This document shows positions 47,938 to 59,015 of a DNA stretch of 64,000 nucleotides, piece after piece; the first letter of the stretch is position 1, and each line of letters begins with the position of its first letter. This DNA comes from Actinokineospora inagensis DSM 44258. Its GTDB lineage: Bacteria; Actinomycetota; Actinomycetes; Mycobacteriales; Pseudonocardiaceae. Under the pieces are notes generated by a model. That model did no database searches. It saw only the letters and a list, made by a program, of their open reading frames with translations, and was not told the DNA's origin. The stretch lies in contig NZ_KI519516.1 in the NCBI RefSeq assembly GCF_000482865.1, forward strand, positions 180,574 to 244,573. The letters are read 5' to 3'. The position numbers and the translations under genes were made by a program.

Positions 47938-48612
47938 TCAGGTGCCGGTCCTGCGGTGCGGCTGGTCGGCGAGGATGCCGTTGCGGACGGCGAAGGAGGC
48001 GGCCTCCAGCCGGGAGTGCACGCCGAGCTTGGTCATCAGCGCCTGGACGTGGGTGCGGACCGTGGTCGACGAGATGCCCATCCTGCGCTGCATGGCGGCG
48101 GTGCCCGCGCCCTCGACGAGCAAGGCGAGGCACTGGCGTTCGCGCGGGGTGAGGTGGGCGGCGAGCCGCTGGGCGTCACCGGTGGCCGTCGAGCGTGGAC
48201 GTTCGCCCCGGGTCGGCAACTCCACCACGACCTCGCCGTCCAGTGCGCGGCGGAGGGCTCGGGCGAGCGAGTTGACGCTACCCGTCTTGTGGAGGTAGCC
48301 GGCCGCGCCCGCGTCCAACGCGCGGGTGACGGTGGCCGGGTCGTCGTCGGCGGTCAGCACGAGGATCTTGGTGCGCGCGCTGGCCCTGGTGAGCTCCCCG
48401 ATCGCGGCGACACCGTCGCCGTCGGCGAGCTTGCGGTCCAGCAGGCACAGGTCGGGGTGCAGGCCGCGCAGGGCGGCGACCGCGCCGGACACCGTCGGCG
48501 CCACCGCGCGCACGGCGAACCCGTGCAGGGCGAGCACCGTGCTCAACGCGTCGGCGAAGACCGTGTGGTCGTCGCACAGCACCACATCGACCGGGTCGAC
48601 CGGGTCGCTCAT
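47938..48612 (-). CDS. NarL/LuxR-type response regulator
   Basis: 224 residues. Receiver domain: acidic pair in VVLCDDHTVFADAL, phospho-acceptor Asp59 in PDLCLLDRKLADGDG, Thr in LVLTADDDP and Lys in GYLHKTGSV. LuxR helix-turn-helix: LTPRERQCLALLVEGAGTAA and MGISSTTVRTHVQALMTKLG. All phosphorylation residues are intact, unlike the second regulator at 53771. The stop region overlaps the kinase gene by 4 bp, so it is expressed after the kinase in one operon. Confidence 0.9.
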   Translation of the reverse strand: MSDPVDPVDVVLCDDHTVFADALSTVLALHGFAVRAVAPTVSGAVAALRGLHPDLCLLDRKLADGDGVAAIGELTRASARTKILVLTADDDPATVTRALDAGAAGYLHKTGSVNSLARALRRALDGEVVVELPTRGERPRSTATGDAQRLAAHLTPRERQCLALLVEGAGTAAMQRRMGISSTTVRTHVQALMTKLGVHSRLEAASFAVRNGILADQPHRRTGT

Positions 48613-49253
48613 CTCGCCTCCGGGGGGTCGTCGGTCGGCTCAACGACGCCGAAGGTCACCCGGATGCGCGTACCGGCGGGTAGTTCCGGGGTGATCCGGA
48701 CAACGCCGCCGACCGACCGGACCAGACCGTCCACAATGCCCAGACCGCGGCCGGACCGGCCGGGCGGCCCCGCGCCGAACCCGGGTCCGGTGTCGACCAC
48801 GTCCACCGCGACCGGGTCGGTGCCGACGACGGCGACCCGGACGGTGCCACCCGCGCGAACGGCGTTGGCCACCAGGTTGGCCACGACCCGCCACAACACA
48901 CCCGGGTCCAGCGGCGCGAACACCGGTTCCCCCGGGTCGAGGTCGACCGGGGCGCCCGCGGCGGCGGCCACCCCGACGAGCCTGCCGAGCAGGGCCCGCA
49001 CGTCCAGCGGGGCGGTGACCGGGGTGCCGCGGACCAGGTCGGTGAGCCGGGCCACCTGCTCGGCGATCAGCCCGACCCTGGTCCTGGTGTCCGCCCGCAG
49101 TTCGGCCGCGGTCCGCACGGACTCGACGAGCAGGGCGAGGGTGGCCAGTTCGTGGTCGATGTCGTGCAGGACGTCCTCGGCGGCGTGCAGCGCGTTGGCC
49201 CGGTCGGTGGTGCGCCGTCCGGGTCCGACCCGGCGGTCGTTCGGCCAGTCCAT
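48609..49253 (-). CDS. Soluble histidine kinase, partner of the adjacent response regulator
   Basis: 214 residues from ATG 49253 (AAGGGGCG upstream); the frame to 49397 lacks coding quality. There is no transmembrane segment or sensor domain. The dimerisation helix has the atypical H-box LHDIDHELATLALLVES. The HATPase part has the N-box RVVANLVANAVRAGG, G1 DTGPGFG and G2 GRGLGIVDGL. Signal input must come from a partner protein or the cytosol. It overlaps the response regulator by 4 bp. Confidence 0.82.
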   Translation of the reverse strand: MDWPNDRRVGPGRRTTDRANALHAAEDVLHDIDHELATLALLVESVRTAAELRADTRTRVGLIAEQVARLTDLVRGTPVTAPLDVRALLGRLVGVAAAAGAPVDLDPGEPVFAPLDPGVLWRVVANLVANAVRAGGTVRVAVVGTDPVAVDVVDTGPGFGAGPPGRSGRGLGIVDGLVRSVGGVVRITPELPAGTRIRVTFGVVEPTDDPPEAR

Positions 49254-49397
49254 ACGGCGCCCCTTCGGGGAGAGTCCACTTGCCAGATCGGTGCACACGA
49301 CCCAGGCGTTTCGTGGTATTCGGCGCGAACGGCCTAGCGGTTCACCCGAATGTAGGACTTTCTCATCCCAGATTTGCCACTCCGCGTGGCGGATCAT

Positions 49398-50024
49398 TCA
49401 CGGGGTGGTGAGGACGGCCTGGACGATGACGTTGTCGCGGTAGCTGCGGATGGCCCGGTCGAAGGTGCCGCCGCAGGTGACCAGGCGCAGTTCCGGGCCG
49501 GGGGTGGGCGCGTAGACGGCGTCGGTGGGGAACGCGGCCTTCGGGGTGCGGGTGGTCGAGACGACGCCGAACACGGCCCGGCTGCCGTCGGCGCGGTCGA
49601 CCTCGACCCGGTCGCCGGGGCGCAGGTCGACCAGCCTGAAGAACACGCCCGGTCCGGCGCGGGAGTCGACGTGCCCCGCGAGCAGCGCGGGGCCGATCGC
49701 GCCGGGGGCGGGTCCGGCGGTGAACCAGCCCGCGATGTCGGGGGCTGTGGGTGGGATGAGTGCTCCGGTGCCGTCCACGTTGATGTCGACGAGCGGTGTA
49801 TCGACGCCGATGGCGGGGATGCGCAGCCGGGTCGGTCTGGGCGCCGTCGTCGTGTCCGTCGCTGTGCCGATGGACGCTGTGTCGATGGACCAGGTTGGTG
49901 CTGCCGGGCCGGTCCGCGCGGCGGGGTTGACGGTGGTGGGCTGGTCTGCCGACCCTGTGACCAGGAAGCAGACCAACGCCACCACGACGCCGAGTACCGC
50001 GCCGACCGCGACCCGGACGATCAC
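49398..50024 (-). CDS. Class F sortase
   Basis: 208 residues. N-terminal signal anchor (AVGAVLGVVVALVCFLVTG), a Thr/Pro linker, then the sortase barrel: RLRIPAIGVDTPLV, LLAGHVDSRAGPGVFFRL (catalytic His), LRLVTCGGTFD (catalytic Cys) and YRDNVIVQA (catalytic Arg). This is the class F pattern of actinobacteria, whose substrates are poorly known. The ATG overlaps the DUF4397 gene by 4 bp (ATGA), so the two proteins are made together. Confidence 0.9.
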   Translation of the reverse strand: MIVRVAVGAVLGVVVALVCFLVTGSADQPTTVNPAARTGPAAPTWSIDTASIGTATDTTTAPRPTRLRIPAIGVDTPLVDINVDGTGALIPPTAPDIAGWFTAGPAPGAIGPALLAGHVDSRAGPGVFFRLVDLRPGDRVEVDRADGSRAVFGVVSTTRTPKAAFPTDAVYAPTPGPELRLVTCGGTFDRAIRSYRDNVIVQAVLTTP

Positions 50025-50824
50025 GCGCGGCGGCGGCGCAGCGACGAGACGAACAAGACCCCGACCGCGCCGGTGAGCACGACGAGCACGAGGGCGGCGA
50101 TCGTGACCGGGCTGGTCCCACCGCCGCCGGTCTCAACGCCACCGGCGGGGATCACCTCGGCGCCCTTCGCGTCGGCCTTCACCTCGGCGGTGAGCCCACC
50201 GTTCTTCTCCAGCACAAGAACCGTGTAGACGCCGCCCGGGTCAAGAGACACCGGCAGGTCCGTCGGGGACGTGTTCTTGGGAACCACCTGCAGCACAGTG
50301 GACCCGGACGGAACCAGGCTGTAGTTGGTGGCCTGACCGAACGACGCCTTCTCGATGACGGCCACACCGGCGCGGTCGATGTCGAGGTCACCGGCCGAGG
50401 GTGCCGCGTTGACGACCCGCATCCGCGCCTGCCCGGACGGCGGCAGGGTGATGTCGTCGTCGAGGACCTTGAGCGCGAGCGAGGCGAACTTGCCCAACCC
50501 GGCGACGGTGTAGGCGCGGCCGTCGCCTGCCTGCAGGGTCGCGGAGATCACCGGCGGGGTCGACGGGTCGGCGCCCGCCGGGCGCATCGCGACCGTGTAG
50601 GTGCCCGGGTCGACGCGCTGGTAGGCGGACACGGCGCCGTAGGCGACGCCGTTGAGCTTCACCGACCAGTCCGGCTTGGCGAAGTTGGTGACGGTGACAT
50701 CGACGGCGGGGGTGTCCGGCGACAAGTGGGCCAGCCGCAGGTAGGTGCCGGTCGCGGCCTGCGCGGGCGCCGCGCCCAACGCGGTCAGCACCGCCACCAC
50801 CAGCAGGATGAGGGTCTTGCGCAT
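50021..50824 (-). CDS. Exported DUF4397 protein with C-terminal membrane anchor
   Basis: 267 residues; GAAGGA precedes the ATG. The signal peptide is cleaved at about AQAATG. Two DUF4397 modules follow (LRLAHLSPDTPAVDV; MRVVNAAPSAGDLDIDRAG). The end is a Gly/Thr linker (VETGGGGTS), a hydrophobic helix (IAALVLVVLTGAVGVLFVSS) and the tail LRRRRA. That layout resembles a sortase-sorted protein, but no LPxTG motif is visible. Overlap with the class F sortase makes it the first candidate substrate. Confidence 0.85.
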   Translation of the reverse strand: MRKTLILLVVAVLTALGAAPAQAATGTYLRLAHLSPDTPAVDVTVTNFAKPDWSVKLNGVAYGAVSAYQRVDPGTYTVAMRPAGADPSTPPVISATLQAGDGRAYTVAGLGKFASLALKVLDDDITLPPSGQARMRVVNAAPSAGDLDIDRAGVAVIEKASFGQATNYSLVPSGSTVLQVVPKNTSPTDLPVSLDPGGVYTVLVLEKNGGLTAEVKADAKGAEVIPAGGVETGGGGTSPVTIAALVLVVLTGAVGVLFVSSLRRRRA

Positions 50825-50839
50825 GGTTCGGTGTCCTTC

Positions 50840-50894
50840 GGTCTAGTTCGGCGCGGTCTAGTTCGGGGCGGTGTAGTCCGGGTCTAGTTCGGGG
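50840..50894. repeat. 15-bp tandem repeats spanning the stop codon of the glycosyltransferase gene
   Basis: GGTCTAGTTCGG-type units occur at 50840-50854, 50855-50869, 50870-50880 (degenerate, shortened) and 50881-50894. The last one contains the TAG stop of the glycosyltransferase (50884-50886). On the coding strand the repeats read CCGAACTAGACC, so the gene end plus stop codon has been amplified into the 59-bp gap before the DUF4397 gene. Confidence 0.85.
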
Positions 50895-53664
50895 TGGCGT
50901 CGCCGGGGGCGGGGATGCGCCAGGAGAGGGTGAAGCCGCGGTCGGTGGCGCGGGAGTCGTCGGGGGCGTAGGGCGGCTGTTGGGCCGCGACCCAGGCGGT
51001 GAGGGCGGCGACCACGGACTGGTCGGTGGCGGGGTGGCCGTCCACCTCGGTCAGGACCGCGGTGCGCAGCGGCAGGTCGGAGCCGGTCTCCGGGCCGGGG
51101 TTGGTGACCTCGGCGACGGTGATGGCGTGGCCCGCGCTGATCTCGGCGAGCACGGTCATGACCCGCAGGTCGACCTGACCGGCGCGCAGCGCGGCGCGGA
51201 CCGTGGCCGGCGCGGTGATCCTGGTGTTGGCGGCGAGTTGGGCACCCGCGATCGCGCGGTTGCCGTCACCGACGTAGCCCGCGCCGCCGTCGGTGAGGCT
51301 GACCGTGACGCCGGGGAAGGTCGCGATCGGAAGTCCGCGCCCGTTGGCGGTGAGCGCGCCGCGGTCGTCGAGCCGCACGCGGCCCTCGGTGTCGTGGAGG
51401 TCGCGGCGAAGGTCGGATGCCAGGAGCGGCGGTGCGGACAGGGCCATGTCGTGTCCGGCGGCAGCGGCGTACCAGTCGGCGGTGGCGCGGTGGTCGACGG
51501 TGGGCGCGGTCGGTTGGATCGCCTTGACGCCCCACACAGCGCCCGCAAGCGCGGTGAGCGTGGCAAGAGCTATGCCGGGGCGGAAGGAGATGGCGGGTAG
51601 GACAACCCTGTCGAGCATCGCGGCCGTGAGGAATACCGCGCCAGTGAGCGCCACCGGCACAAGTTGGTCGGTCCCAGTCTCAAGAACCAAGGCGAGCACG
51701 GACGCAGCGGCTACTCCTGTTGCGACAGATCTAAAAGGAGTGATGAGCCCACCGAGAGCGACAACAAGAGCCGCGAGCAAGAGCAACGATCGCGTGCCGG
51801 GTACGAACATCGCGGCCGGGGTAGTGAGGTACAGGAATGGCACGACGCCAACGACTGCGACGACAGCGAAGGTTGCCGACCAACTCCACCGGCGGGTAGG
51901 GATGCTCCACGCGAGAGCGCCGACCGCCGCCGGTAGGACAAGCATGGGTGCCGTGGCGACAGCGGCAACGGCCGCGACGACGACTACGGGAACAGGTTTG
52001 ATGTCGCGGCGGGTGATAGCGGCGACTGAGGCCACACCCGCGACACCGAGCCAGGTAGTGGCCAACGGTCCCGGACCGGCTGTGGCGAAAGCGGTCGCGG
52101 CGACAGTGCACGCCGCGGCAATGGCCACCGCGACCGCCAAGGGCCGGAGCTTGAGAAGTGCGGCAGCGAGTAAGAGGCACAGGGCGAGGACGACCGCGGC
52201 AGCGACAGAAGCCTCGCGAGCGCTGAGAAGAACGCTGCTGTACCGGTCGAACGAGCGACTTATCCCGCCGTAGAGCACCAACTGGAGGTTGGTCGGGACA
52301 AGAGTGCCCGCCACCGGTGGTTCACCAATGCCGGCTACTCGGCTGTAGACCCCATCGATGACGGTGGTCTCCAACGGCGACGCAGGCAGGGTCGCGGCCG
52401 TCAGATAGACCCGAAGGACGAACACCCCTGCCGAACCCAGCGCGAGAAACCAACCGGCCACGGCGATCGGACGGGTCCGCCACCAACTCCGACTAGCGAC
52501 AGCAGGTGTCACAGCCCGGACCGGGCTCAGCCACCGCGCGCGAACAGGTGTGACGAGCGCGCTCAGGAACAGGACTCCGTCGAGCACCCGGACCAGCGGC
52601 AGGAAAACCGCGACGGGGAGATAGCGCGGCTCCTGCTGTCTACTGGCGACGACAAGAGTCAGCAGCAGGTCGGGCACGAACACGCCGAGCAGCAACGCCG
52701 GCACGGTGACCACGCCCGTAGCGACCAAGACCGGTAGAGCTATCCACAGCAAGGACGCGACAACCGTCTCCGCCGCGAAGGCGACAATCCCGCGCGTGTG
52801 CGATCCACCGCCGCCGTCACGCCGGGCAGCCTGCCAAAACCCCTTGGCCCATAAGCGAAGCTGGGTGCAGTAGGTGCGTAGGTCATCTGGGTCACGGGTG
52901 CTGACCACTGCACCGCGCACCACAACAACACGACCCAGTCGACGCCGGTAGATCTGGTTCGACAGGTCGAAATCCGCGACAGCCACACCGTCCGGGTCGA
53001 GATCGAGCTCAGCCAACACGCTCGACCGGTATAGCCGCGCCGGGCTCGGCAACAGACGGGCGACCTCGGTGCGGGGGCGGGTGCGGTCCACGGTCAGCAG
53101 CCACTGGGTCAATGCCAGCGACCGGGCCCGGTACGCGGTCAGCAGGCGGGCCACCGGGTTGCGCCGGGCGGTGTCCCACTCGGTCTGGGCGTACCCGGCG
53201 ATGGCCACCACGGCGGGGTCCTCGAACAGCGGCAGGGTCCGGTCGAGGAACCGGGGGTGCGGCCGGTGGTCCACGTCGAGCAGCAGGACGTACCGGTACC
53301 GGTCCAGCGCGCCGAACCCGGTCAAAGCCGCCGAGACGGCCCCCGACCGGCCCGAGGGCCGCACCGTCTCGGCGACGTTCACCCCCTGCGCGTGCGCGAC
53401 GTCCAGCGTGCGGTCGGCGGAGGCGTCCACCACCACGTGGATGTCGGTGCGCGGCACCAACCGGGCGGCCGCCGTGATCGCCGCCGCGACCTCGTCCTCG
53501 GCGTCGCGGGCCAGGATCAGCACCGCGACCTCGCCGAGCACCGGCTCGCCCCGCTCGACCGGCGGCGACCCGCGCTCCCGGTCCCGGCGGAACACCCCGA
53601 GCACCGCGCCGACCACGAACCCCACGCCGACCACGAACGCGGCGAGCACCCACGCCGGGATCAC
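50884..53664 (-). CDS. Large membrane glycosyltransferase, family 2, with extracytoplasmic C-terminal domain
   Basis: 926 residues from GTG 53664. After one helix, the GT2 domain (about 45-290) shows VVVDASADRT, LLLDVDHRP (DxD), ADFDLSNQ and QLRLW, the Q-x-x-x-W motif of processive enzymes. Residues 300-740 are about twelve to fourteen helices. Residues 745-926 are a soluble domain expected outside. It could polymerise or export a surface glycan; donor and acceptor are unknown. Codons 271 (52852-52854, in QLRLW) and 498 (52171-52173) are TTA. The central region has lower third-position GC than both ends. Confidence 0.8.
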   Translation of the reverse strand: MIPAWVLAAFVVGVGFVVGAVLGVFRRDRERGSPPVERGEPVLGEVAVLILARDAEDEVAAAITAAARLVPRTDIHVVVDASADRTLDVAHAQGVNVAETVRPSGRSGAVSAALTGFGALDRYRYVLLLDVDHRPHPRFLDRTLPLFEDPAVVAIAGYAQTEWDTARRNPVARLLTAYRARSLALTQWLLTVDRTRPRTEVARLLPSPARLYRSSVLAELDLDPDGVAVADFDLSNQIYRRRLGRVVVVRGAVVSTRDPDDLRTYCTQLRLWAKGFWQAARRDGGGGSHTRGIVAFAAETVVASLLWIALPVLVATGVVTVPALLLGVFVPDLLLTLVVASRQQEPRYLPVAVFLPLVRVLDGVLFLSALVTPVRARWLSPVRAVTPAVASRSWWRTRPIAVAGWFLALGSAGVFVLRVYLTAATLPASPLETTVIDGVYSRVAGIGEPPVAGTLVPTNLQLVLYGGISRSFDRYSSVLLSAREASVAAAVVLALCLLLAAALLKLRPLAVAVAIAAACTVAATAFATAGPGPLATTWLGVAGVASVAAITRRDIKPVPVVVVAAVAAVATAPMLVLPAAVGALAWSIPTRRWSWSATFAVVAVVGVVPFLYLTTPAAMFVPGTRSLLLLAALVVALGGLITPFRSVATGVAAASVLALVLETGTDQLVPVALTGAVFLTAAMLDRVVLPAISFRPGIALATLTALAGAVWGVKAIQPTAPTVDHRATADWYAAAAGHDMALSAPPLLASDLRRDLHDTEGRVRLDDRGALTANGRGLPIATFPGVTVSLTDGGAGYVGDGNRAIAGAQLAANTRITAPATVRAALRAGQVDLRVMTVLAEISAGHAITVAEVTNPGPETGSDLPLRTAVLTEVDGHPATDQSVVAALTAWVAAQQPPYAPDDSRATDRGFTLSWRIPAPGDATPN

Positions 53665-53770
53665 CCCGGCACCGATCCGTGGCCCACCGCATCTCCCCTA
53701 CACCGTGCCCCAACACGGCGACCGTAGGATCCGACGGACCAATTCGGCTCACCCCGCTGGATGAGCGCGC

Positions 53771-54448
53771 CTACGACATATGGACGGGATCTTTCGGTCG
53801 CGGTAAGAGCCCGGCGGCACGGGCAGCGCTCACGGCCTGCAAGCGACTGTGCACTCCCAGTTTCGCGTAGACGCTATGTGTGTGGGTCCGCACCGTGTTC
53901 GTGGACAGACCCAACTCGGCGGCGATCTGCGGGCCACGCATACCGTCCACCATGCACCCGAGCACCTCGCGTTCCCGTGCGGACAACTGGTCCAGTGGGC
54001 CCTCACCGACGCGGTTGACGTCGTCACGCAAGCCACGCAGGACCGCGCCGAGGAACCGCGGCGGGAACCACGCGTCACCGCGCGCGACACCACGCAGGAC
54101 CTCCACGAGGTGGGTCATCCCGGACGCCTTGGAGATCCACGCGTCGACCCCGAGCCGGGCCGCGGCCAGCGCGCGCTCCGGGTCCTTGCTCCCGGTCAAC
54201 GCGACCAGCCGGGCCTCCGGGGCCGCGGCGCGCAGGACCCCCAGCAGTTCGGCCAGTGGGACGCGGGCGGTATCGGGCTCGACGGTGATGATCGCGGGCC
54301 GCTCCCGCTCCAACCGGGCGGACAACCGCGGGTCGTCGCTGGCACTGCGGCCCGCCACCCACAGGTCGGTGAACGCGGCCAACCGGGTGGCCAGCGCGTC
54401 GGTGAGCAGGCTGTGGTCGTCGACGAGCCAGAGTCTGATGGGGTCCAC
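53771..54448 (-). CDS. LuxR-type regulator with Glu in place of the phospho-acceptor Asp
   Basis: 225 residues from GTG 54448. The receiver keeps the acidic pair (WLVDDHSLL, Asp10/Asp11), Thr in VALTGSKD and Lys in AWISKASG. At the phospho-acceptor position, however, the sequence is PAIITVEPD, with Glu57 where Asp is expected. LuxR-type DNA-binding domain: LSAREREVLGCMVDG and LGLSTNTVRTHTHSVYAKLG. Glu can mimic the phosphorylated state, so it may be constitutively active. It precedes the glycosyltransferase by 106 bp on the same strand, and no kinase adjoins it. Confidence 0.88.
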   Translation of the reverse strand: MDPIRLWLVDDHSLLTDALATRLAAFTDLWVAGRSASDDPRLSARLERERPAIITVEPDTARVPLAELLGVLRAAAPEARLVALTGSKDPERALAAARLGVDAWISKASGMTHLVEVLRGVARGDAWFPPRFLGAVLRGLRDDVNRVGEGPLDQLSAREREVLGCMVDGMRGPQIAAELGLSTNTVRTHTHSVYAKLGVHSRLQAVSAARAAGLLPRPKDPVHMS

Positions 54449-56079: not shown

Positions 56080-57591
56080 GTGCACGTCCTCGACCTGGCG
56101 ATCATCGTGGTGTTCCTGATCGGCATGCCGCTGCTGGGGGTGCTGATCGGCGGGCGGCAGCGGTCCGCGAAGGACTACTTCGTCGGTGACGGCAAGATCT
56201 CGTGGTGGGTGGCGTGCCTGTCGGTGGTGTCCGCCGAGACGTCCACGCTGACGGTGTTGAGCGTGCCGACGGTGGCCTACCTGGGTTCTTTCACCTATTT
56301 GCAGCTCGCGATCGGGTACATCATCGGCCGCACGGTGGTCGCGTTCGTGCTCTTGCCGCGATACGTCGCCGGGAACATGACGACCGCGTACAACTTCCTC
56401 GGTCAGCGGTTCGGACCCGGGCTGCAGGCAACGGCGTCGGTCACGTTCCTGCTGACTCGTCTTCTTGCCGACGGCGTGCGGCTGTTCGCGACGGCCATAC
56501 CGGTGAAGGTTGTGCTGTCCGCCTACGGTTTGAACGCTCAGTACTGGCAGATCGTGGCCGTGCTCGGTGTCGCGATGGTGGCGTACACGTTCTTCGGTGG
56601 GGTCCGCGCGGTCGTGTGGGTCGACGCGGTGCAGATGCTCTGGTACGTCGCGGGCGGGATCGCGGTGATCGCGGTGCTCGCCGGGAAGCTGCCCGACGGG
56701 TGGCTGGACGCGGCGGTGCACGCGGGCAAGACGCAACTGTTCGACTTCGCCGCGGCGCCGCTGTCGAACCAGTACTCGGCGGTCGCGGCGATCATCGGCG
56801 GCGCGGTCCTGTCGATGGCTTCGCACGGCGCCGACCAACTGGTGGTGCAGCGGCTGATGGCCTGCAACGACGTGCGGGCCAGCCAGAAGGCGATGATCGC
56901 CAGCGGCGTGGTGGTGATCCTCCAGTTCGCGATGTTCCTGCTGATCGGGACGATGCTGTGGTCGTTCTACCGCGGCCTGGACCCGGTGAAGGGGCTCGGG
57001 CTGACCACGTCCGACGAGCTGTTCGCGTCGTTCATCGTGACCGACCTGCCCAGTGGGCTGTCCGGGTTCGTGATCGCGGGCATCCTGGCGGCCGCGCTCA
57101 GCTCGTCGCTGGGGGCGCTGGCGTCGTCGACCGTGACCGACGTCTACCAGAAGGTCGCCCGCCGAGACCTGTCGGACGCGGAGACGCTGCGTCTTGGTCG
57201 CATGTGGACGGTGGTGTGGGCGGGCGCGCTCATCGTGTTCGCGTCGATGTTCACCACAACCACGAACCCCATCGTCGAAACCGCCCTGGCCATCACCGGC
57301 TACACCTACGGCGCGCTGCTCGGCGCGTTCGTCTTGGGGCTGGCCGTGAAACGGGCCAGACAGGTGGACGCGATCGTGGCGTTCGTCGTAACGGTCGCGG
57401 TTATGGCGTTCGTGATCCTGGGGTTGAAGTTCGACAAGGCCACTGGCTCGTTCCTCGGCGTCAACTTCGCCAAGGCGTCCGGTAGCACTGTCGCGCTCGC
57501 GTTCCCCTGGTACACCCCGCTCGGGGTCGCGGTGACGCTACTCGTAGGCGGTCTGCTCGCCCTGCGCCACCGCAACCCCGTGCAGGTCTAG
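56080..57591 (+). CDS. Sodium:solute symporter (SSS) family transporter
   Basis: 503 residues from GTG 56080, preceded by GGCGGGAG. About 13 helices. Family marks are KDYFVGDGKISWWVACLSVV, SAETSTLT, GVRAVVWVDAVQMLWY and the helix-5/8 region GILAAALSSSLGALASSTVTDVY. The substrate cannot be read; relatives move sugars, nucleosides, sialic acid or carboxylates. Its TAG overlaps the stop of the convergent oxidoreductase within CTAG. It diverges from ftsY across 163 bp. Confidence 0.88.
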   Translation: MHVLDLAIIVVFLIGMPLLGVLIGGRQRSAKDYFVGDGKISWWVACLSVVSAETSTLTVLSVPTVAYLGSFTYLQLAIGYIIGRTVVAFVLLPRYVAGNMTTAYNFLGQRFGPGLQATASVTFLLTRLLADGVRLFATAIPVKVVLSAYGLNAQYWQIVAVLGVAMVAYTFFGGVRAVVWVDAVQMLWYVAGGIAVIAVLAGKLPDGWLDAAVHAGKTQLFDFAAAPLSNQYSAVAAIIGGAVLSMASHGADQLVVQRLMACNDVRASQKAMIASGVVVILQFAMFLLIGTMLWSFYRGLDPVKGLGLTTSDELFASFIVTDLPSGLSGFVIAGILAAALSSSLGALASSTVTDVYQKVARRDLSDAETLRLGRMWTVVWAGALIVFASMFTTTTNPIVETALAITGYTYGALLGAFVLGLAVKRARQVDAIVAFVVTVAVMAFVILGLKFDKATGSFLGVNFAKASGSTVALAFPWYTPLGVAVTLLVGGLLALRHRNPVQV

Positions 57592-59015
57592 AAGACTCCC
57601 TGGGCGGGGGCGAGGATGCCGCTGGGGTCGTACTTGGCTTTCAAGCGACGCAGACGGGGATAAGAGGCCCCGTAGTGGCGTGCCCAGTCACCTGAACGGC
57701 TCGGGATAGAGCCAATCGGGTACTGGGCGCCGCCTACGGACAGCGCGCGTTCGTAGGCGTTCCGGTTGTCCGTCAACAACTTCTGGACCATCGCGTCATC
57801 CGATGGGGCTACCACGCGCAGGATGGACAAGATGAACACGACAGGGCTGTCGGGCACCGACACCATGGGCCGGGTAAGACGCTTGCGGGAGAACGGGTAC
57901 AGCAGGATCGGGCCGTTACCGGTGTCGGCGGGGGTCAGCTTGGACAGCAACTCCTCGACGTAAGAGTCGGTGGCCTTGTCAGGCAGGAACAGGTTGAGCC
58001 ACGGGTTCGGGAACCGTAGTGGCCGCAATTGCTCGATAACCGCATAGATCCGGTTGAGCCAGTCCAAGTACGGCATCGACGTGATTTCCGTCGTCACCGG
58101 GGCCGGTAAGCCGCGCAGGATCGCGTTGTCGTCGGGATTACCGCCGTAGACACCGCCTTCGAGCAGGTAGGTCCACCCGGTGCCGGACCACACGGCCTGA
58201 CCTTCCAGGTAGTCGAAACGGCCGTCGGCGAGCGCGATCCGTTGCGCGGCCGTCATGGAACGCAGGTCCGGATAGCCGTAGTGGTAGATGCGGGCCGTGG
58301 CGGCCGCCGGGACAAGGGCCAGCGTGACGCGCACGATCACGCCGTACTGGCCGAGCCCGCCGAGCACGGCGTCGAACAGTTCCCGTTCCACGGTCGGCGA
58401 ACAGCGGACGAGCCTGCCGTCGCCGGTGACGACCTCCACCTCCCGCACCGCGTCCACCTGCAGGCCGTACCGGGAACTGGCCCCGCCGATCCCGCCGACC
58501 GACAGGGTTCCGCCCACGGACAGCCCGAGGTAGTCGGTCGCGACCGGCGGGGTGTACCCGGCCGCCAGCGTCGCCCGCACCACGTCCAGCCAGGTCGCGC
58601 CCGCGTCGACCACAACGGACCCGCGCGACACCGGGCCGATCTTCGCCAGGGTGCGCGAGTCGATCACGACACCGGCCGGGGCCTGCGCCTGGCCGAAGGT
58701 GGAGTGCCCCTGCCCGCGCACCGCCACCGGAATCCGGTGCGCGGCGGCGAACCGGACCACCGCCGTGATGTCGTCCACCGAACCCGGCCGCAGCACCGCG
58801 CGCGGACGGCGGTGCGCGATCTGCCCGTAGTCGTCGGCGGCCTCGCCGAGCGCCGCGTCATCGGTGACCAACCGGCCGTCCAGCCGGGGCACGGGGATGC
58901 CGCCCGCGCCGGTGTCCGCCTGGGCCTGGGTCACCCACCCCGGGCTTAGCGCGTCGAACGCGACGATCGCGCTCGCGGCACCTAACGAAGCAAGAACCTG
59001 ACGGCGGTTGGGCAC
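57588..59015 (-). CDS. Tat-exported FAD-binding oxidoreductase, cytokinin-dehydrogenase-like
   Basis: 475 residues. The Tat signal NRRQVLASLGAASAIVAFDAL is cut near AQADTG. The FAD PCMH domain has RPGSVDDITAVVRFAAAHRIPVAVRGQGHSTFGQAQ (in two parts: residues about 76-110), where the His in GHS is the covalent flavin site of cytokinin dehydrogenases, then LSVGGTLSVGGIGG. The C-terminal domain contains DYLEGQAVW and ends YPRLRRLKAKYDPSGILAPAQG. It may oxidise cytokinins or other secreted amines or alcohols; the bacterial family is diverse. Confidence 0.82.
   Translation of the reverse strand: MPNRRQVLASLGAASAIVAFDALSPGWVTQAQADTGAGGIPVPRLDGRLVTDDAALGEAADDYGQIAHRRPRAVLRPGSVDDITAVVRFAAAHRIPVAVRGQGHSTFGQAQAPAGVVIDSRTLAKIGPVSRGSVVVDAGATWLDVVRATLAAGYTPPVATDYLGLSVGGTLSVGGIGGASSRYGLQVDAVREVEVVTGDGRLVRCSPTVERELFDAVLGGLGQYGVIVRVTLALVPAAATARIYHYGYPDLRSMTAAQRIALADGRFDYLEGQAVWSGTGWTYLLEGGVYGGNPDDNAILRGLPAPVTTEITSMPYLDWLNRIYAVIEQLRPLRFPNPWLNLFLPDKATDSYVEELLSKLTPADTGNGPILLYPFSRKRLTRPMVSVPDSPVVFILSILRVVAPSDDAMVQKLLTDNRNAYERALSVGGAQYPIGSIPSRSGDWARHYGASYPRLRRLKAKYDPSGILAPAQGVF

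Follow-up and report, generated by a model that had tools for sequence, protein, structure and literature searches.

The locus analysed here raises the question of what stands at the centre of six minus-strand genes of Actinokineospora inagensis DSM 44258 that encode, in this order, a response regulator (RR1), a giant open reading frame (ORF) with a family 2 glycosyltransferase (GT2) domain, a DUF4397 protein, a class F sortase, a kinase and a second response regulator (RR2). The genes lie in a stretch of 64,000 nt (the window) within the 7.28-Mb genome, and a first-pass annotation had described them as an uncharacterised surface system with a sortase beside its possible substrate and the GT2 at its centre. 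The surface system and the sortase with its neighbour are upheld by a conserved pairing and by a tail type that tracks the sortase, whereas the central place given to the GT2 is not. Our analysis makes it likely that the block encodes a regulated unit for display at the cell surface, in which the class F sortase recognises a C-terminal motif of the DUF4397 protein. Its core is the DUF4397 protein together with the class F sortase, rather than the GT2, and the motif, P-x-G-G-V-x-[T/A]-G-x-G-[G/S], is on sequence comparison a strong candidate for a class F sorting signal.

The DUF4397 protein of the window scored 123.8 bits with PF14344 (gathering cut-off, 30.6) and has an N-terminus that looks signal-peptide-like by eye. 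Its C-terminus contains, in order, all three parts of a sorting tail, namely PAGGVETGGGG, a hydrophobic segment and RRRR, and no LPxTG-type pentapeptide was found ahead of the transmembrane (TM) segment. The adjacent sortase scored 181 bits with NF033748, the NCBI class F model (cut-off, 166), and carries His118, Cys184 (TCGG) and Arg196 (YRDN), assigned by motif, after an N-terminal hydrophobic anchor recognised by eye. Pfam and NF033748 matches thus confirmed the identities previously given to the sortase, the DUF4397 protein and the LuxR regulators. A phmmer search of the PDB returned no relative of the sortase at E<=0.01; the DUF4397 profile matched only PepT1 (E 0.0009 and 0.002) and AlgF (E 0.64) there, which hints that DUF4397 is a beta-sandwich. 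There is no second DUF4397 gene in the genome, as both matches fall within the window gene. Other sortases of the same genome have neighbours with LVNTG (L158), LASTG (L160) or GGPSTG (L161, class F-like), and no such tagged neighbour was found for a further one (L159).

The association of the two proteins was counted in named loci, using the best 80 of 125 confirmed stretches with a DUF4397 alignment, in which 79 DUF4397 proteins were called with a home-made codon-usage caller. A class F sortase came next on the same strand, or was fused, for 73 of the 79, the rest being four at contig edges and two without a class F sortase next door. The pair occurs in other genera with or without the C-terminal module of the giant ORF (C-module), so that the neighbourhood conservation proposed as a check of the first-pass annotation was found. 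Furthermore, P226, G233 and G235 were invariant in 16 of 16 aligned DUF4397 proteins and G228 and V230 nearly so, in variable surroundings, and an initial strict pattern fitted 65 of 77 tails in the named loci. In-frame DUF4397-sortase fusions were seen at L041, L102 and L241; these are three genomes of different families, and draft-assembly errors are possible.

The type of tail also depended on the neighbour across the phylum, where PF14344 was found in 54 of 396 genomes. Sixty-seven DUF4397 genes were tested automatically, and 64 were kept after two with short downstream sequence and one fused gene had been dropped; the window gene, four loci that were open-ended or had no ORF, and places in genomes G598 and G683 stood outside this test. 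The motif followed by a hydrophobic segment and basic residues was present in 32 of the 35 DUF4397 proteins with a downstream class F sortase and in none of the 29 without one (Fisher p 7e-15, kinship uncorrected). Among these 29, 23 had no such tail, five had [L/I/M]PDTG and one LADTG. The three linked proteins that failed the rule were near misses by eye (L206, VPTGDSG; L242, IDSGDGG; L222, VNTGGEL), and classing the tails by eye gave 35/36 against 0/29, with L245 set as LPxTG, although the automatic version was used instead. The sortase-linked proteins cover eight family labels, and genomes G424 and G409 carry both kinds of DUF4397 protein. Loci L246-L250 (family label f32) have LPxTG-type tails on DUF4397 with no class F sortase next door.

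The motif was not restricted to DUF4397 proteins. We compared its strict form, within the last 80 amino acids (aa), between the gene immediately preceding a class F sortase and the other genes of the same locus. It was found in 71 of 73 upstream genes and 5 of 1094 others in the named DUF4397 loci (four of these five being DUF4397 proteins), in 22/26 and 4/64 in the 30 best loci among 121 genomes of the order, in 11/16 and 1/86 at 20 further hand-picked places down the list, and in 16/23 and 1/70 in 30 loci from 31 genomes of a Streptomyces-like genus, which have 2 to 10 class F sortase matches per genome. LPxTG was absent from the upstream genes of all four sets (0/73, 0/26, 0/16 and 0/23). 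Three of the four exceptions among the 64 other genes (L251, L257, L269) adjoin a sortase or a presumed substrate in the same small locus, and at the fourth (L280) no sortase was called. Pfam assigned eight of the upstream proteins to Ice_binding (two; L265, L276), Excalibur (one; L273), nothing (five) and DUF4397 (none), and ectodomain clustering of 137 of 138 upstream proteins gave 18 groups, 14 of them scoring, one spuriously (L311). The proteins at L265 and L276 are ice-binding-like (PF11999) and have a class F-type signal just upstream of class F sortases. The consensus of 95 distinct windows was P (0.97), x, G (0.93), G (0.69), V (0.73), x, T/A (0.96), G, x, G, G/S (0.94), in which the proline and glycine frequencies are partly imposed because the regular expressions were written after examples had been seen.

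Several points weigh against the motif being a class F sorting signal. The regular expressions were devised once examples were known, and the 2x2 tables lack phylogenetic independence. A loose form of the rule also fits 25 of the 1094 other genes, and the strict form missed 4/26, 5/16 and 7/23 upstream genes, several of which were near variants by eye (PSGHVKTGVGG, PAGAPQTGG). The upstream genes at L311 and L313 show nothing and that at L337 just a hydrophobic, basic terminus, and the DUF4397 genes of L136 and L155 have no class F sortase called next to them. Moreover, a classical sorting signal needs a hydrophobic and basic tail, and seven upstream proteins (L252, L254, L257, L260, L271, L307, L310) keep the motif and lack that tail; they may be decaying, or the tail may be non-essential. 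L252, L254, L257 and L260 bear genus label g3 and L271 belongs to the window's genus; these proteins end right after the motif, and L252 has a tail-like stretch in another frame. In addition, LPXTG is reportedly the signal used by the P. acnes class F sortase that has been studied in vitro. Our custom DUF4397 hidden Markov model (HMM) includes the tail and flagged L279 and 5/16 and 2/23 upstream proteins, which may be tail matches because Pfam finds no DUF4397 in L279. Lastly, a study of Actinoplanes missouriensis reports no phenotypic change in a quadruple class F mutant (PMC13251363).

The persistence of the motif in tailless proteins would also fit a motif that serves other processing, by a rhombosortase (GlyGly-CTERM-like) or an intramembrane protease, with the class F sortase a mere neighbour. 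The motif is Gly-rich and lies shortly ahead of a hydrophobic segment, as do other C-terminal tripartite tags. However, it tracks the class F sortase in every sample and across different ectodomains, and DUF4397 proteins without a class F neighbour have an LPxTG-type tail or none, which makes processing by another enzyme highly improbable.

If the class F sortase does recognise the motif, the pathway could run as follows. The DUF4397 protein would be exported and held via its C-terminal hydrophobic segment and Arg tail, and the adjacent sortase, on recognising P-x-G-G-V-x-[T/A]-G-x-G-[G/S], would use Cys184 to cut after T/A and before G, as analogy with other sortases suggests, and join the DUF4397 ectodomain to an acceptor. 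The C-module may be an auxiliary membrane or extracytoplasmic partner, fused to GT2 in the lineage of the window. Control of the envelope or of polysaccharide probably governs expression too, because RR1, GT2, the kinase and RR2 are related to the gene set of exopolysaccharide (EPS)-type clusters, described below. The features of the block are listed in Table 1.

Table 1. Features of the block in the Actinokineospora inagensis window and the evidence for each.
Feature	Position in window	Strand	Evidence
RR1, LuxR/NarL-type response regulator	53771..54448	(-)	GerE E 3e-18; receiver under cut-off
Giant GT2 ORF, 926 aa	50884-53664	(-)	ORF and Pfam GT2
GT2 domain, residues ~1-394	52483..53664	(-)	PF13641 E 8e-12, motif positions, hydropathy
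C-module, residues 395-926	50887..52482	(-)	Window member without Pfam/NCBIfam match
DUF4397 protein, 267 aa, proposed sortase substrate	50021..50824	(-)	PF14344 E 7.4e-36, 2 stretches
Candidate signal for the class F sortase, PAGGVETGGGG (residues 226-236)	50117..50149	(-)	Position, alignment, statistics
DUF4397 hydrophobic segment and RRRRA basic tail	50024..50116	(-)	Sequence
Class F sortase, 208 aa	49398..50024	(-)	NF033748 181 bits, residues by motif
Soluble histidine kinase	48609..49253 (longer ORF to 49397 possible)	(-)	HATPase_c E 1.3e-9
RR2, NarL-type response regulator, normal Asp	47938..48612	(-)	Response_reg E 6e-20, GerE E 6e-16

The GT2 domain of the giant ORF has an N-terminal TM helix, DASAD at 80, DVD at 130-132, DFD at 231-233 and QLRLW, a QxxRW variant, at Q268-W272, followed by TM helices predicted by hydropathy. 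Processive GT2 enzymes of the synthase type are marked by DxD, D/ED and Q-x-x-R-W motifs plus TM helices. No second GT2 of this family was found in the genome. The C-module is multi-TM to residue ~716 and ends in a soluble domain (~721-926) according to hydropathy. Its searches used HMMs built from the window and neighbour proteins, which distant members may escape. No Pfam or NCBIfam family matched more than four of 45 members; the weak recurrent matches were T7SS_Rv3446c (four members, best E 0.034), TrbD (three, 0.039) and DUF2079 (three, 0.73), the best single match was DUF7261 (one member, E 0.0026), and no PDB chain was found at E<=10.

The C-module could be a degenerate GT-C membrane glycosyltransferase, acting either on the DUF4397 protein, which it would glycosylate, or in providing the acceptor of that protein. 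Its multi-TM region plus C-terminal soluble domain would suit such an enzyme, E432, D437, R483 and E484 are conserved around the first predicted outer loop, and the one alignment that hhalign gave with PMT_2 proteins lies beyond that loop. However, the hhalign probability against the four PMT_2 proteins of the same genome was ~1%, and the only Pfam match in this direction was DUF2079, a GT-C-like family, in 3/45 members. In these comparisons, profile similarity to GT-C enzymes was not found and this identity was rejected, and we regard a glycosylating role of this kind as unlikely.

The distribution of the two domains separates the C-module from GT2. The C-module lies directly upstream of DUF4397 in 43 of the 74 cases having a called upstream gene, and the GT2 model matched only 8 of 47 C-module-bearing ORFs in the named loci. 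GT2-C-module fusions directly upstream of the DUF4397-sortase pair were found in Actinokineospora, Umezawaea and Actinophytocola. The C-module occurs without GT2 beside the pair in Geodermatophilaceae, Lentzea and others, and in genome G373 it stands alone, adjoining DUF4397 and sortase. The Geodermatophilaceae proteins mostly measure 247-597 aa, with others called at 129 and 793 aa, and some consist of the soluble domain only; in Micromonospora loci the pair was present with no C-module detected. Two other fusions were seen. At L067 (9373-14934), a 1853-aa ORF that we take to be Pls-like joins AMP-binding, carrier and hexapeptide-repeat domains to the C-module and is followed by DUF4397 and a class F sortase. 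At L130, the C-module is fused to a membrane protein likened by eye to PqqD/M50, which had no Pfam match, and DUF4397 follows at the contig end. PqqD/M50-like membrane proteins, again by eye, were also fused to the C-module at L061, L063 and L066, near ~900-aa proteins with a LuxR-type end, and no DUF4397 or sortase was called there within 19 kb. From GT2, L067 and L130, the C-module could be a docking element through which membrane-bound synthetases, each making a different polymer, come to a shared sortase device; the class F sortase would then couple the growing polymer to the DUF4397 protein. We consider this very improbable; if true, bacteria would have a protein-to-polymer conjugation system that uses a sorting signal of its own.

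The GT2 domain itself is altered in sister species. In A. terrae (L078) and A. globicatena (L080), the DxSxDR segment is deleted, DVD is changed to EPD, the DFD stretch is lost and QLRLW is changed to QVSTW and QVSTG. A. diospyrosa (L081) has a shortened GT2 region with DSE in place of DVD, an altered DFD stretch and a retained QVRLW; our caller placed its start too late, as the frame is open further upstream. All three have a shortened GT2 and keep the rest of the block. In Actinophytocola (L086), DVD is kept, DFD is changed to NFD and Q-x-x-x-W is absent. Judging from these residues, the altered domains are probably inactive, though the ORFs are open, and, if so, GT2 activity would be dispensable to whatever the rest of the block does. 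GT2 as the core of the system was rejected on the domain distribution together with the altered motifs.

The regulatory genes connect the block to polysaccharide loci. RR1 has Glu57 at the usual phospho-acceptor Asp position, as had been noted before and is confirmed by position, and Glu was also found in A. terrae (L078). Among nine other aligned RR1 homologues, Asp was present in eight and Glu in one (L038), so Glu57 was ruled out as a defining feature. The kinase, soluble as described earlier, matches HATPase and no sensor domain was recognised in it. Its start is probably 49253 (214 aa) and not 49397, because the codon-usage caller and the 214-aa orthologue of A. terrae both begin at MDWP, and this leaves ~144 bp after the sortase. 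Fifteen EPS-type loci (L043-L057), chosen by GT2 match from the same family and other genera of the order, contained RR1 and RR2 homologues in 10/15 and kinase homologues, 39-46% identical, in 5/15. Like the window, these clusters have linked homologues of RR1, RR2, the kinase and GT2; unlike it, their GT2 ORFs have only 391-615 aa, matching the giant ORF as far as residue ~399, and in the parts of the loci shown the gene calls include no homologue of DUF4397 or of the sortase. Because of these linked homologues, the block seems to combine an EPS control/GT2 set with a sortase module, judged from gene content and not from a tree.

These clusters bear on a glycan-centred alternative, in which the sortase would attach the DUF4397 protein to a polymer synthesised by GT2. 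GT2 and RR1 homologues occur together in 10/15 of them, the genes of one cluster have Pfam matches to GT2, GT4, GH18, epimerase and Bac_transf, and the three genera with the fusion have it directly upstream of the pair. The low frequency of GT2 among module-bearing proteins, its alteration in three sister species that keep the rest, and the many DUF4397-sortase loci without a detected module make this alternative quite unlikely. Protein-to-glycan coupling, which the first-pass annotation had suggested, is possible but unsupported. It may take place in lineages with an intact GT2; it is not the general function of the pair, because the C-module occurs without GT2, GT2 is altered in the sister species and no module was detected in the Micromonospora loci.

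The genomic site shows the block to be a unit. The six ORFs were confirmed as co-directional, with the 4-bp overlaps between DUF4397 and sortase and between kinase and RR2 reported earlier, and are flanked by amt and ftsY, with a DUF6986 gene between RR2 and amt. Among 397 sampled genomes of the order, this genome and four of seven others of the genus gave GT2 matches of near full length, and the named relatives that share the gene order of the window are Actinokineospora. All four of these congeners have the order RR1, GT2, DUF4397, sortase, RR2 (in one, L041, with DUF4397 and sortase fused), and one of them also has a called kinase. In the remaining three, which have no GT2 match, the site between ftsY and DUF6986 is empty: DUF6986 directly follows ftsY in L287, and a single gene of 505-527 aa, presumably malate synthase, separates them in L288 and L289. 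Gene calling recovered none of the six in the 20-kb stretches of these three loci, DUF4397 and class F sortase not having been searched elsewhere there. Since four congeners hold RR1-GT2-DUF4397-sortase-RR2 and three hold none of it at the site, the block is a unit, present or absent together except for the kinase. The earlier description as an insertion between amt and ftsY is therefore correct at the genus level, from the flanks and the empty congener sites, with gain and loss unpolarised; it also invoked the adjacency of amt and ftsY in M. tuberculosis. Elsewhere in the window, at 57588-59015, an FAD oxidoreductase matches a Pfam cytokinin-binding domain (E 1e-26).

A conserved signal just upstream would give the poorly understood class F sortases a testable target, and class F substrates could be searched for by sequence in actinomycetes carrying several such enzymes. 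Additionally, DUF4397 proteins with an LPxTG-type tail, the new signal or none, according to their neighbour, represent a natural experiment on sortase specificity. In the open-licence literature on class F sortases and DUF4397, we found no proposal of this signal, which may be described elsewhere, and no paper joining 'class F sortase' with DUF4397.

Among known systems, PEP-CTERM/exosortase systems also have a kinase and a regulator. The enzyme of the block is instead a class F sortase and most carriers show no polysaccharide gene in the module; the tag lacks PEP and, in Pfam and NCBIfam searches of the six genes, no exosortase was found. The two share a C-terminal tag with a dedicated processing enzyme near polysaccharide genes, the former being described as protein sorting associated with exopolysaccharide (PMC1569441). 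Class E sortases are also similar: SrtE1 of S. coelicolor is an actinobacterial sortase with a non-LPXTG signal (LAXTG) before a TM segment and basic tail, in a paper that lists sorting signals for classes A to E, not F (PMC5148588). In contrast to LAXTG, the signal proposed here reads P-x-G-G-V-x-[T/A]-G-x-G-[G/S] and frequently lies in the gene that precedes its own sortase gene. The closest enzymes are SrtF1-4 of A. missouriensis, of the same class (NF033748) and with the catalytic residues present, described in that 2026 study (PMC13251363). There, two proteins with a signal peptide, TM segment and basic tail beside srtF1 and srtF4 were suggested as possible substrates, and in the study, in which all four class F sortases were deleted, the neighbours were set aside as no pentapeptide motif was found. 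Our comparison, in which the sequences of those two proteins were not included, differs in that it shows a motif to be conserved and gives the partner a named domain. The locus is an unusual modular assembly of ordinary parts, and it adds a new and well-supported candidate for the class F sorting signal.

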